Assembly (NCBI GenBank): GCA_947461015.1
Contig: CANHIR010000013.1
Location: forward strand, 1 to 20,940
Origin: Bacteroidota bacterium
Lineage (GTDB): Bacteria; Bacteroidota; Bacteroidia; Chitinophagales; Chitinophagaceae
Direction: 5' to 3'
Length of the DNA: 20,940 bases
Position numbers and translations under genes: made by a program. Under the pieces are notes generated by a model. That model saw nothing but the letters and a program-made list of their open reading frames with translations. It was not told where the DNA came from and made no database searches. This document shows, in pieces, positions 3,750-8,416 of this stretch (position 1 is the first letter of the stretch; the number at the start of each line of letters is the position of its first letter).

Positions 3750-6482
3750 TTAATCAATCACTGGTTGCAGCCATCTTGTGATGTATTCCAAGGTTTGACC
3801 TTTTCTTTTTGCATAATCTACTACCTGATCCTGCTGAATTTTACCCAATCCAAAATATTGTGATTGAGGATTTGCAAAATACCAGCCACATACGCTAGAG
3901 GCTGGATACATTGCCAAGCTTTCAGTTAAGGTAATGCCTGTGTGCTTTTCGGCATCTAATAAACTAAACAAAGTGTATTTTTCGGTATGATCCGGACAGG
4001 CAGGATAGCCTGGCGCTGGTCTTATACCTACATAATTTTCTTTAATTAATTCAGTATTGTCTAAATGTTCATCTTTTGCATAACCCCAGAATTCCTTTCT
4101 TGTTTTTGCATGTAAGTATTCTGCAAATGCTTCAGCTAAACGGTCGGCTAAGGCTTGTAAAATAATTTTATTGTAATCGTCATAGTTTGCTTCAAATGCT
4201 TTGATATGTTTTTCAATACCATGAATAGTAACCGCAAAAGCACCTAGATAATCTTTTTTATTTTCTGCAGCCGGACAAATAAAATCTGCCAAAGAAAAAT
4301 TAGGTTGTCCTGCTGCTTTTTTTGCTTGTTGCCTTAAGAAATGCAATTGCGTATTTTCATTTCCATGATGTAAAGTGATATCATCATTAAGGCTACTTGC
4401 TTCCCAGAATCCTATCGCTCCTTTAGCAGTTAACCATTTTTCTTGAATAATTGTTTGTAATAACGCATTGGCATCTGCATATAATTTAGTTGCTACTTCG
4501 CCCACTTTTTCGTCGGTTAATATGGCAGGGAAATTGCCATGTAATTCCCATGCAATAAAGAAGGGCTTCCAGTCTATATAATCTACCAGCACCGATAAGT
4601 CGGATATTTCAATGGCTTGGTTGCCGGTAAAGCTTGGGGTAGTGGCCTCAAATTTTGACCAATCAATGGCCATTTTATTTTGTAAAGCTTCCACATATGG
4701 GGTGGATTGTTTCACTGTTTTTTTATTGTCAAAATCTGACTTTAATTGAACATATTCTTTATCTAAATTTTCTAAGAAGCCTATTTTTTGTTCTTTATTT
4801 AGTAGGGAACCTGCAACCGTCACACTTCTTGATGCATCCAATACATGTATTACACCATCATTGTATTCAGGTGCTATTTTCACCGCAGTATGCATACGAG
4901 ATGTAGTAGCACCTCCAATCATTAAAGGAATGTTCATACCGCGACGCTTCATTTCCTTAGCAATATGTACCATCTCATCTAGGGAAGGTGTAATTAAACC
5001 ACTTAATCCAATAATATCTACTTCATGCTTAACCGCTTCTGCTAAAATTTTATCTGCAGGTACCATTACACCTATGTCAATAATTTCATAACCATTACAA
5101 CCTAATACTACACCCACAATATTCTTACCAATATCATGCACATCGCCCTTTACCGTAGCTAATAATATTTTAGCAGGCCCTTTGGTTTGTCCATTTGGAT
5201 TGGATGATGCATTTTTTAACCTTTCTTTTTCAGCTTCAATGAATGGCGTTAAAACTGCCACACTTTTTTTCATCACACGCGCACTTTTTACCACCTGTGG
5301 CAAAAACATTTTTCCTGCTCCAAATAAATCACCCACTTGATTCATGCCTGCCATTAATGGACCTTCAATTACTTCCAATGGTGCACTATATTGTAATCTT
5401 GCTTCCTCGGTATCCTCCTCAATAAAATCGGTAATGCCATTAATTAAAGAATGGGCTAATCTTTTTTCTACGGTATCGTTTCTCCAAGCTAATTTTAATT
5501 TATTGGCTTCCTCCGAAGATTGTCCTGCATTTTCACCACTCGCTTTTAAATTATCTGCATAAATAATTAATGCTTCGGTTGCTTGGTTATTATCATTGTT
5601 CTTATTTAAAATAACGTCTTCGCATAAATTTCTTAGTACAGGATCAATCTCATCATAAACCACTAATTGCCCGGCATTTACAATACCCATATCCATCCCC
5701 GCTTTAACAGCATGGTATAAAAACACAGCATGAATAGCTTCACGTACTGCTTCGTTGCCTCTAAAGGAGAAAGATACATTGGATACACCTCCACTCACTT
5801 TTGCTAATGGCATTTTTTGTTTTATCACACGGGTTGCTTCAATAAAGTCTACCGCATAGTTATTATGTTCTTCAATTCCTGTTGCAACTGCAAAAATGTT
5901 GGGATCAAAAATAATATCCTGTGGATCAAAACCAACCTGCTCCACTAAAATTTTATAGGCACGCTCGCAAATTTCTATCTTTCTTTCCTTCGTGTCGGCT
6001 TGTCCAACTTCATCAAATGCCATAACAATCACCGCTGCACCATAGGCTTTGCAAATATGCGCTTGCTCAATGAACTTTGCTTCTCCCTCTTTCATAGAAA
6101 TAGAGTTCACAATACATTTTCCTTGTACACATTTTAATCCAGCTTCAATAATTTCAAACTTTGAACTATCAATCATCACTGGAATACGCGCAATATCGGG
6201 TTCACTTTGCATTAAGTTCAAAAATGTAGTCATGGCTTTCACGCCTTCTAGTAAAGCATCATCCATGTTCACATCAATTACCTGCGCTCCGCTTTCTACT
6301 TGCTGACGCGCTACCGATAATGCTTCCTCGTATTTATTTTCTTTAATTAAACGCGCGAATTTTTTAGAACCAGTTACATTGGTTCTTTCTCCCACGTTTA
6401 CAAAATTAGTTTCGGGACGAATTACTAAAGGTTCAAGTCCTGCTAGTCTTAGATAAGGCTTAATATGTATTGATTCGCTCAT
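3750..6482 (-). CDS. metH: B12-dependent methionine synthase, pterin/cobalamin/reactivation subunit
   Basis: This 910-residue protein is the C-terminal three-quarters of cobalamin-dependent methionine synthase, which passes a methyl group from methyltetrahydrofolate through cobalamin to homocysteine. Domains in order are: the pterin-binding barrel (about residues 20-290, starting at [13 protein letters not shown]); the B12 cap helices (about 325-425, with [15 protein letters not shown]); the B12-binding Rossmann domain (about 435-570, with KGDVHDIG containing the cobalt-ligand His449, then GLSGLITPS and GGATTS); and the SAM-binding reactivation domain (about 590-910, with [12 protein letters not shown] at 821-832). 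All key motifs are intact. The homocysteine/zinc domain is absent here and is encoded by the separate gene immediately upstream, 46 bases away and in another reading frame. The start at 6482 follows an A-rich stretch (AAAGAAAAAAAA) typical of phyla that seldom use Shine-Dalgarno sites. Confidence 0.96.
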
Positions 6483-6528: not shown

Positions 6529-7542
6529 TTAAATAGTTGCGTCTACAATTGGTAAAGGTCTTGGTGTTAAGTTTCTGACATTGTCCGCCATATGTTTAAT
6601 ATGATCAGGTGTAGTTCCGCAACATCCACCTACAATATTTACAAATTGATTCTTTGCCCACTCTTCAATAAAGGCGCCTGTTTGATGTGGTGCTTCGTCA
6701 TATTGTCCCATTGCATTGGGTAATCCTGCATTGGGATAAGCCGATGTATAGCAAGTTGCAATTTGAGAAAGTTCTTCAATGTGTGAACGCATTTCTTGTG
6801 CACCCAATGCGCAGTTCAAACCAACACTTAATGGGTTTGCATGTGCCACCGAAGTATAAAAAGCTTCTAAGGTTTGTCCACTTAAGGTTCTACCCGATGC
6901 GTCTGTAATCGTGCCGCTAATCATAATAGGCAATTCAGGTTTTCCTAATTTTCTAAAGTATTCCTTTATAGCGAAGATGGCCGCTTTTGCATTTAGCGTA
7001 TCAAAAATGGTTTCAACCAACAATACATCTACGCCTGCATCCACCAATCCTTTTATTTGTTCAGTATACGCTTCAACTACTTCATCAAAAGTAACTGCAC
7101 GATATCCTGGATTGTTTACGTCGGGAGATAAGCTTAATGTTTTATTCAATGGTCCAATAGATCCTGCAATGTATTTTTCGGAAGTATTAGGATGTTTTGA
7201 TTTGTATTGATCAATGGCGTCGCGCACACATTTTGTAGCAGCTACATTTAATTCATAAGCCAATTCCTGCATGTCATAGTCCGCCATGGCAATGCTTGTA
7301 CTACTAAATGTATTTGTTTCAATAATATCGGCCCCTGCTTCTAAGTATTGTAAATGAATACCTGTAACAATGGATGGCTGTGTAATGCACAACAAATCAT
7401 TATTACCTTTTAAATCGCTATGCCAATTGGCAAATCGAGTGCCTCGATAATCTTCTTCGGTTAATTTATGGCGTTGAATCATGGTACCCATGGCGCCATC
7501 AATGACTAAAATCCTTTCTTTAAGTGTATCCTGTATTGACAT
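6529..7542 (-). CDS. Homocysteine S-methyltransferase subunit of split methionine synthase
   Basis: This 337-residue protein is the N-terminal module of methionine synthase, which binds and activates homocysteine through zinc. The start [17 protein letters not shown] matches the MetH N terminus. The three zinc-ligand cysteines are present: Cys244 in GLNCALG, and Cys307-Cys308 in GGCCGTTP. The protein ends shortly after LTPRPLP, which in one-piece MetH is the linker leading to the pterin domain, so the break falls exactly at a domain boundary. A complete enzyme must form by association with the 910-residue product of the next gene. Split MetH pairs like this are, to my knowledge, found in other Bacteroidota. 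The pair is probably one transcript starting from the promoter at 7694-7725, with a long structured leader. It could be annotated metH N-terminal subunit or, less precisely, a homocysteine S-methyltransferase (mmuM/bhmT-like). Confidence 0.94.
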
Positions 7543-7577
7543 AAATAAATTTTTTATGCAACACCCAAAAGGACGAA

Positions 7578-7609
7578 CAAAGCTAATTCACCAATAAACC
7601 TATACTAAA
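7578..7609 (-). promoter_or_regulatory. Weak second promoter candidate for metH
   Basis: On the reverse strand TTTA (7609-7606) is followed after 20 bases by TAGCTTTG (7585-7578), an exact -7 match with a poor -33. Transcription from here would start near 7571 and leave out the structured leader. It may be chance in AT-rich DNA. Confidence 0.25.
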
Positions 7610-7635
7610 GGGGATAGGTTGTATCGTTTATTAGT
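7590..7635 (-). promoter_or_regulatory. Leader hairpin that competes with the pseudoknot
   Basis: In the metH leader RNA, ACUAAUAAAC (7635-7626) can pair with GUUUAUUGGU (7599-7590) over 10 positions including one G-U pair. Inside it, CCUAU (7618-7614) can pair with AUAGG (7603-7599), sharing one base with the outer stem. The 5' strand is the same one used by the upstream pseudoknot pairing, so both cannot form at once. No U-run follows, so it is not an intrinsic terminator. Confidence 0.35.
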
Positions 7636-7684
7636 TCTTTTTTCCTTTCGGATGGCAGGTTGAACAATAAACAAATCCACCTGC
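7626..7684 (-). promoter_or_regulatory. Candidate pseudoknotted leader RNA of metH
   Basis: Read on the minus strand, GCAGGU (7684-7679) pairs with ACCUGC (7660-7655), enclosing an 18-base loop. Within the loop, GUUUAUUGUUC (7672-7662) is complementary over 11 bp to GAAC plus AAUAAAC (7637-7634 and 7632-7626), with a single bulged U at 7633, giving an H-type pseudoknot. Between the two, UCC-GAAA-GGA (7652-7643) forms a short hairpin with a GNRA tetraloop. The predicted transcription start is only a few bases before the first stem. I do not find the conserved cores of SAM-I, SAM-II, SAH or cobalamin riboswitches. A role in sensing a methionine-cycle metabolite is inference only. Confidence 0.4.
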
Positions 7685-7693
7685 AATGCGGGG

Positions 7694-7725
7694 CAAAGTT
7701 AGGTTAGTATTAGCTTGTAGCCAAA
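7694..7725 (-). promoter_or_regulatory. Bacteroidota-type promoter for metH
   Basis: On the reverse strand TTTG (7725-7722) is followed after 20 bases by TAACTTTG (7701-7694), matching the -33 TTTG and -7 TAnnTTTG consensus with the usual spacing. It is the best promoter in the window. Transcription is expected to start near 7689-7686, giving a leader of about 145 bases before the metH ATG at 7542. Confidence 0.65.
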
Positions 7726-7804
7726 TTCGTAAGTGAATAATACACTTTTGGCCCAATATTTAATGTTAAAACATTGAAACTAAAGATTTTACCGAATTTG
7801 GCTA
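7718..7804. repeat. 12-bp perfect inverted repeat spanning the recR stop and metH promoter
   Basis: TAGCCAAATTCG (7718-7729) and CGAATTTGGCTA (7793-7804) are perfect inverted copies separated by 63 bases. One arm contains the recR stop codon (7802-7804) and the other contains the -33 TTTG of the metH promoter. Between them are two small hairpins: AAGTG/CACTT (7731-7735, 7743-7747) and AATGTT/AACATT (7762-7767, 7770-7775). No T-run follows in either direction. Confidence 0.5.
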
Positions 7805-8416
7805 TTTAATATACTGATGTATAGGTTGTCTGTTAGAAATGCTTTTGCCTAATGTCATTTCATCGGCGTATTCTAATTCACCACCAAATGCAATTCCCCT
7901 AGCAATGGTCGTAATCCTGCAAGTATTGTTTGCTAATTTCTTTTGAATATAATAGATGGTCGTATCCCCTTGAATGGTTGGGTTTAAGGCAAATACCAAT
8001 TCGGTCACTTTGTCTTTTGTAACTCTTTCAATAAGGGATGCTATGGTTAATTGCTCGGGTCCAATTCCATCTAATGGCGAAATAATACCACCCAATACAT
8101 GATAAGTGCCATGAAATTGCCCCGTATTTTCAATGGCAATCACATCTCTTATATTTTCTACCACACAAATGGTATCTTTTTGTCTTCCGGAATTTGCACA
8201 AATGGAACAAATGGTTCCATCACTTATATTATAGCACTTTTGACAGAATTGAATTTCATTTCGCATTTTTTGAAGGGTTTCTGCAAATAAGGAAGTGACA
8301 CCTTTTTCTTGTTTTAACAAATGCAATACTAACCTTAGTGCAGTTTTTTTCCCAATGCCTGGCAGTTTAGCAAATTCTGCTACTGCGTTTTCAAGTAAGG
8401 AAGAAGGTAATTGCAT
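7802..8416 (-). CDS. recR: Recombination mediator protein RecR
   Basis: This 204-residue protein is RecR, which with RecO (and RecF) loads RecA onto SSB-coated single-stranded DNA during gap repair. The order of motifs is canonical: a helix-hairpin-helix at residues 18-30 (LPGIGKKTALRLV); a four-cysteine zinc finger with Cys58, Cys61, Cys70 and Cys73; and a Toprim domain beginning at CVVENIRDVIAIE with acidic Glu87, followed by HVLGG and TTIYYI. The C-terminal ARGIAFGGELEYADEMTLGKSI matches the conserved end of the family, and the length is typical (about 200). No recO or recF is present in the window. The gene starts 20 bases after the lipoprotein gene stop, so it is probably the third gene of the helicase-nuclease operon. 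The stop lies inside a 12-bp inverted repeat. Confidence 0.97.
   Translation of the reverse strand: MQLPSSLLENAVAEFAKLPGIGKKTALRLVLHLLKQEKGVTSLFAETLQKMRNEIQFCQKCYNISDGTICSICANSGRQKDTICVVENIRDVIAIENTGQFHGTYHVLGGIISPLDGIGPEQLTIASLIERVTKDKVTELVFALNPTIQGDTTIYYIQKKLANNTCRITTIARGIAFGGELEYADEMTLGKSISNRQPIHQYIK

Follow-up and report, generated by a model that had tools for sequence, protein, structure and literature searches.

The interval between recR and the genes for the vitamin B12-dependent methionine synthase of a Chitinophagaceae bacterium raises the question of whether the leader of the metH transcript is a regulatory RNA and, if so, what it responds to and how it acts. The window analysed here is contig 13 of the draft genome G000 (20,940 nucleotides; the genome is 71% complete), and the leader is the interval between recR (7802-8416) on one flank and the metH N-terminal gene (metH-N; 6529..7542) on the other, all on the minus strand. 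The metH-N gene encodes the homocysteine S-methyltransferase domain (Pfam PF02574, E 1.2e-100) and is presumed to be under the control of the leader RNA; the metH C-terminal gene (3750..6482, minus strand), with pterin-binding, B12-binding and activation domains according to Pfam, comes next and likely belongs to the same operon. Upstream of the first helix (P1) of the structure described below, and ending 9 nt before it, lies TAACTTTG (7694..7701, minus strand), which we take to be a Bacteroidetes −7 promoter element of the TAnnTTTG type. Because elements of this kind (TAnnTT[TC]G or TAnnTTG, at most 40 nt upstream) were present in 125/130 related leaders compared with 13/130 shuffled ones, P1 very likely marks the 5′ end of the RNA.

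Just 3′ of this promoter, the minus strand from 7684 to 7626 folds by its complementarities as an H-type pseudoknot, and the six-base-pair stem, complementary loop and mini-hairpin that the initial annotation had placed in the leader all lie where it had put them. The P1 5′ strand GCAGGU (GCAGGT in DNA; 7679..7684) pairs with the P1 3′ strand ACCUGC (ACCTGC; 7655..7660). It is followed by L1, GGAUUU (7673..7678), a putative major-groove third strand, and by the P2 5′ strand GUUUAUUGUUC (DNA GTTTATTGTTC; 7662..7672), which forms 11 pairs with the P2 3′ strand GAACUAAUAAAC (DNA GAACTAATAAAC; 7626..7637), leaving one bulged U at 7633. The mini-hairpin P3, UCC-GAAA-GGA (7643..7652), is optional: it varies in length and sequence and is missing in many relatives, the connecting loop ranging from a few nucleotides without a hairpin up to long hairpins. 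The smallest motif seen spans 42 nt (L384) and the largest in the listed matches 108 nt (L164).

The structure drawn from one sequence proved to be more than a chance fold. When metH leaders were retrieved by the metH protein alone, the core was present in 24/24 leaders from the same genus, window included, and in 0/6 leaders from other families of the order. The core also recurs among matches found by RNA pattern or covariance model. The exact P2 pattern was detected in 43/396 genomes of the order, every one of them in Chitinophagaceae, and a reversed-pattern control gave no match in the same 396 genomes. A covariance model of the sequence plus the P1 pairs (R1, built from alignment set A2) matched 182/244 Chitinophagaceae genomes and 77/101 genera, usually once per genome. 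Downstream of the motif metH was the only gene seen: metH-N followed in 29/30 fetched exact-pattern matches (in the remaining one the contig stops 219 nt downstream), in 80/80 further fetched R1 matches, and in 75 of the 80 matches listed from a scan of named genomes, the other five contigs ending within 120 nt. That scan gave at least 119 matches, and among the 80 listed the titles were all Bacteroidota, many of them Chitinophagaceae, except for one ‘uncultured bacterium’. The three match sets (30, 80 and 80) overlap in genomes, and across them six contigs without metH-N end 14-219 nt downstream. Comparative sequence data thus establish both the conserved RNA and its link with metH.

Beyond Chitinophagaceae no match held up among 395 genomes of the class, 11 of which matched, eight of these within the family. 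One non-family match (L185, genome G954) was read as a contaminant: its core and the next bases are the same as those of the family locus L176, it sits on a 4-kb contig, and the genome is listed at 4% contamination. Two further matches outside the family (L187 and L188) were weak and lacked metH. Second copies were indicated in nine genomes; the two matches of G443 look like one locus split by a contig end, and nine other extra matches, with E values of 0.02-0.09, were taken as chance, 0/3 of those read (L386, L388, L389) being located before metH. Divergent copies were sought in 20 of the 62 motif-negative family genomes, 19 of which had metH; the motif was absent in the 17 loci that could be judged, two being too short upstream, and one of the 19 carried SAM-I. 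By eye, about ten motif-negative family genomes (L189-L206) have a promoter-like element near the metH ATG, as if the mRNA were almost leaderless. The 130 leaders used for the promoter comparison were gathered by a regular expression requiring ATTT, TTATTGTTC and AACTAAT; it was applied to 140 loci (L001-L060, L101-L180), of which 134 matched, the six misses being the other-family leaders, 133 had metH and 130 were distinct. This set leaves out L071-L100 and the loci of the class-wide, named-genome and second-copy searches.

Conservation and covariation of both helices, the check named in the initial annotation, was borne out for P1, and for P2 in its first half: P2 is conserved, with only two covarying changes. 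Both sides of P1 change in 7/7 pairs of set A2 (50 sequences) and in 5/7 pairs of set A4 (79 distinct model-found sequences), the other two being invariant; pairing is kept in approximately 84% of P1 cells and is often absent at the outermost counted pair (A2 columns 2-33). When changes were mapped by parsimony onto a metH-N tree for 129 leaders, 35 compensatory branches fell on P1 (5.0 per pair), compared with 0.38 per pair and a maximum of 4 for column pairs that are not partners. Within P1, no compensatory branch falls on the pair adjoining L1, and of the 88 changed branches of the outermost pair only 3 are compensatory. Since the exact-pattern sets behind A2 fix P2 by choice, P2 was counted on A4, which comprises 80 matches (79 distinct) out of 182, picked by us from listed places. 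Here P2 was nearly invariant, with 99.7% of cells paired, three U.G wobbles, three unpaired cells and two compensatory changes (G-C to A-U in L154; U-A to A-U in L173), which lend thin support to the P2 register in which U7630 faces A7668. In topology this is an H-type pseudoknot with the P2 3′ strand downstream of P1.

The initial annotation had failed to match the leader to the SAM-I, SAH, THF or cobalamin cores, and the Rfam search agreed, listing no riboswitch family, preQ1 included. Rfam covariance models gave no credible match to the metH leader and none at the gathering score; the leader alone, searched at E values up to 10, listed no SAM family, and the matches obtained were snoRNA and microRNA noise, so that a strong match to a known riboswitch family was not found. 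SAM-I (RF00162) likewise precedes metH in L026-L029 and L207, but it is described as a four-way junction fold (PMC6061858) rather than an H-type pseudoknot, and its Rfam model does not match the metH motif although it detects SAM-I in those same loci. The SAM/SAH riboswitch (RF01727) also lies upstream of a methionine-cycle gene, but is reported from Rhodobacterales before metK (PMC2864571), and its Rfam model gave no match to the motif. In the open-licence literature on Chitinophagaceae riboswitches, Bacteroidetes SAM-II and metH pseudoknots, no title or opening among the papers listed described this metH-leader RNA. Conservation, P1 covariation and the lack of an Rfam family all support the earlier proposal that methionine synthase has a new or diverged regulator here, and the RNA probably represents a new type of metabolite-sensing switch.

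The initial annotation had found no match to the SAM-II core either, and this stands at the level of profiles, as the motif fails the SAM-II covariance models; it does not stand at the level of structure, where topology and key residues are those of the SAM-II/SAM-V core except at one ligand-contacting position. In the reported SAM-V structure, the third strand puts U8, U9 and U10 into the groove of P2, the bulged U47 pairs with the adenine of SAM, U20:A48.U9 faces the sulfonium, and A50 together with A18 holds the amino acid (PMC6061858). In the metH leader the UUU of L1 corresponds to U8-U10, A7668, U7667, U7666 and G7665 to A18, U19, U20 and G21, and the bulged U7633 to U47. By sequence, therefore, the U-rich third strand near P1 and the U19:A49, U20:A48 and G21:C46 pairs with the bulged U are all present, and the third strand would form a triple helix with P2. 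The A50 position is occupied by U7630, facing A7668, so that the contact made by A50 in SAM-V is changed. Across the 79 distinct model-found sequences, L1 contains AUUU in all (GAUUU in 78), the P2 5′ strand AUUGUUC in all, the P2 3′ strand AACUAAU in all, and the A50 position is a U facing A in all. The core letters also occur in 130/130 of the larger leader set, but the regular expression for that set requires them. The chance of the shared core was approximately 3e-5 in a post hoc simulation with a fixed layout.

Compared with SAM-V as described (RF01826; PMC6061858), the metH motif shares the P1/P2 pseudoknot, the UUU of L1, AUUG opposite C-U-AA with its bulged U, a P3 between P1 and the P2 3′ strand (optional in the metH motif), an A-rich joint and a proposed translational logic. 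It differs in having U for A50, which can pair with the equivalent of A18, and in a P2 that runs on as GUUU/AAAC without a turn. It also lacks a covariance-model match and possesses an alternative anti-P2 helix. SAM-V occurs in a different phylum and with a different gene. The long-loop SAM-II form (RF01726), listed for Bacteroidetes in Table 1 of PMC2864571, was detected in 33/247 class genomes, and the best 20 of the 33 were fetched. All 20 have the [GA]AUUUG third strand together with UUG and C-U-AA as in the metH motif, but A at position 50 instead of U. These 20 loci come from Bacteroidia outside Chitinophagaceae (L238-L257), and 18 precede metK (called by eye, one checked by Pfam), the other two lying at contig ends without a gene call. 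RF01726 was found above its cut-off in 0/147 Chitinophagaceae genomes, and R1 does not recover SAM-II sites in 18 loci. Because the motif model misses SAM-II, the kinship rests on topology and residues and may reflect convergence; and because profile methods link the two in neither direction, we liken the motif to SAM-II/SAM-V rather than file it as a member.

What, then, would the RNA bind? Rfam places SAM-I upstream of metH in 4/6 of the other-family leaders (L026, barely above cut-off, L027, L028 and L029; not found in L024 and L025) and in the motif-negative Chitinophagaceae locus L207. Within the family, SAM-I is present in 15/20 motif-positive and 16/20 motif-negative genomes searched, and in the 12 motif-positive loci read it lies before Cys/Met-metabolism PLP enzymes or homoserine dehydrogenase (read by eye; Pfam was used to check five of these loci). 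As SAM-I thus precedes metH in relatives and other sulfur-amino-acid genes in the family, SAM is the first guess, and by analogy the ligand is most likely SAM or a close adenosyl relative. Our preferred explanation, to which we give even chances, is an uncatalogued, family-restricted metH riboswitch working like SAM-II/SAM-V, most likely for such a ligand, with a translational OFF sense. It is weakened by the U in 79/79 sequences at the position that holds the SAM amino acid in SAM-V, by the failure of every Rfam SAM model to score the motif and of R1 to find SAM-II, and by metH being the only gene seen downstream, while SAM-I serves other genes in motif-positive genomes.

Some of these points favour the reading that the fold is the same but the ligand another, whether SAH, MTA or adenosine or else a folate or cobalamin linked to the MetH reaction, with the A50-to-U change having removed the contact to the methionine tail. 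Inosine at A50 is reported to cause a severe loss of SAM binding in SAM-V (PMC6061858), metH is the only gene seen downstream of the motif, SAM-I already stands before the other sulfur-amino-acid genes, and a change of ligand has a described precedent in SAM-I variants that sense spermidine (PMC10853860). Nevertheless, the motif retains the uracils that in SAM-V lie opposite the sulfonium of SAM, and the SAM-I riboswitches on metH in four of the six other-family leaders also point to SAM, so that we consider another ligand possible but somewhat doubtful. Given the change at position 50, SAH, MTA or some other compound must be taken seriously as the second guess, and only tentatively would we go as far as a new riboswitch class, restricted to metH and to this one family, Chitinophagaceae, in which the SAM-II/SAM-V pocket was retuned by A50 to U for a non-SAM ligand such as SAH, MTA or another methionine-cycle product. 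At stake is whether a single base retunes a SAM aptamer or SAM is bound without the A50 contact; the family thus offers a natural experiment in which the amino-acid contact of a SAM-II/SAM-V-like pocket has been replaced. With this motif, a central enzyme of one-carbon metabolism acquires an uncatalogued, strongly conserved candidate regulatory RNA across a large family of bacteria, and Bacteroidota would gain a compact regulatory switch of approximately 60 nt.

A structured leader that binds no small molecule, being instead a protein or ribosome site or a pure P2/anti-P2 attenuator, appears unlikely. Bistable pairing alone could answer to translation or to a protein, and the ligand is our inference; however, the core is near-invariant exactly where SAM-V has its ligand-binding triplex, while loops and spacings vary freely, as in aptamers.

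In the SAM-type riboswitch that we prefer, L1 would sit in the major groove of P2, and a planar ligand (the adenine moiety of SAM or of a closely related adenosyl compound being the likeliest) would stack at the bulged U7633 and stabilise P2. Formation of the pseudoknot would withdraw the P2 3′ strand from a downstream complement (anti-P2), and the freed anti-P2 would base-pair close to the start of metH; alternatively, the start codon would be abutted by P2 itself. In either case translation would be turned off. Without ligand, the P2 3′ strand would pair downstream and leave the start open.

Such an anti-P2 is conserved by sequence: it lies 20-40 nt after P2 in most leaders and is of the type CGUUUAU-AGUUC. 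CGUUU was found at +18..+55 in 89/125 leaders and is missing in 36/125, compared with a mean of 7.7 and a maximum of 14 after shuffling; in two other windows it was found in 4/74 and 2/129. The local pairing score of the P2 3′ strand reached p <= 0.05 in 60/125 leaders, and a reversed query did as well in 15/125. In folds predicted without the pseudoknot, 107/125 leaders have the P2 3′ strand paired to downstream sequence (>0.5), with a median peak 31 nt after P2; of shuffled cores placed on a 96-leader subset, 25.5% paired in this way. By eye, changes of the last core base look compensated in L124 and L161 (A with a downstream U) and in L173 (C with a downstream G), but of the six leaders with a last A and room downstream, four (L050, L123, L130, L172) lack a matching U and two (L124, L161) have it. 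For the window leader the predicted alternative fold is strong (z −4.2), and the P2 3′ strand is predicted to pair downstream with probability 0.73; its partner in the minimum-energy fold lies at 7579..7596 on the minus strand, 7587-7579 pairing with 7637-7630 and 7596-7592 with 7626-7622. The anti-P2 score of this leader by itself is not significant (p 0.07), while that of the family as a whole is.

Folds of the start region point the same way in a minority of leaders. Reserving the core for the pseudoknot raised the predicted pairing of the start region by more than 0.2 in 27/96 leaders and lowered it in one, compared with 2-9 rises and 1-6 falls of 96 in shuffled-core controls; in 69/96 leaders no such rise occurred, and in the window leader the predicted value is 0.456 both ways. 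By eye, the freed anti-P2 would be complementary to the bases adjoining the AUG in L016, L017, L019, L020, L022 and L059. The AUG follows the core at a distance of 2-11 nt in four leaders (L144, L157, L163, L169); that of L177, by eye, shares the last core base. The conserved anti-P2, the start-region folds and these five leaders with an AUG abutting P2 suggest a translational OFF switch; the 36/125 leaders without CGUUU, the pairing score significant in only 60/125, the 69/96 leaders without a start effect, the unchanged start region of the window leader and the mere two compensatory changes of P2 weaken our preferred explanation.

If the same aptamer controlled transcription instead, by termination or Rho, the long leaders (as much as 457 nt between core and AUG), the alternative hairpins with U-rich stretches after some of them (by eye) and the unchanged start region of the window leader would be accounted for; however, the five leaders just mentioned are too short between P2 and AUG to fit a terminator, and by eye the U-runs do not directly follow the hairpin, making transcriptional control improbable. 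Finally, the near-perfect inverted repeat GTTTATTGTTC...GAACTAATAAAC could be read as a DNA operator bound by a protein, but we rejected this highly implausible idea because P1 compensates along RNA-pairing lines and the spacing of the arms varies widely, and the element nearly always begins just after the promoter-like element (125/130).

Three further observations concern the sequences around the core. In the window leader, the P3 segment CAUCCGAAAGGA (7643-7654) has a predicted alternative partner in UCCUUUUGGGUG (7562..7573, minus strand; 12 pairs, p 0.01), 20-31 nt before the AUG. In the small-genome subclade to which the window belongs, the P3 segment is complementary to the stretch before the AUG at p <= 0.05 in 9/14 leaders, some of them near-identical, and this pairing is a possible second switch helix. 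In L123, L130 and L173 a sequence almost identical to the P2 3′ strand (GAACUAAU or AACUAAUAAAACG) was noted by eye directly at the start codon of metH. Lastly, GTTGYGTCRCWCNCTTGTAC, present in the leaders L128, L141, L149 and L158, occurs as a repeat scattered in very large numbers over some Chitinophagaceae genomes: a backward-pattern control gave none, and its copies number 0 in G218, 5 in G463, 221 in G112, 549 in G450, 1053 in G172 and 1297 in G497.
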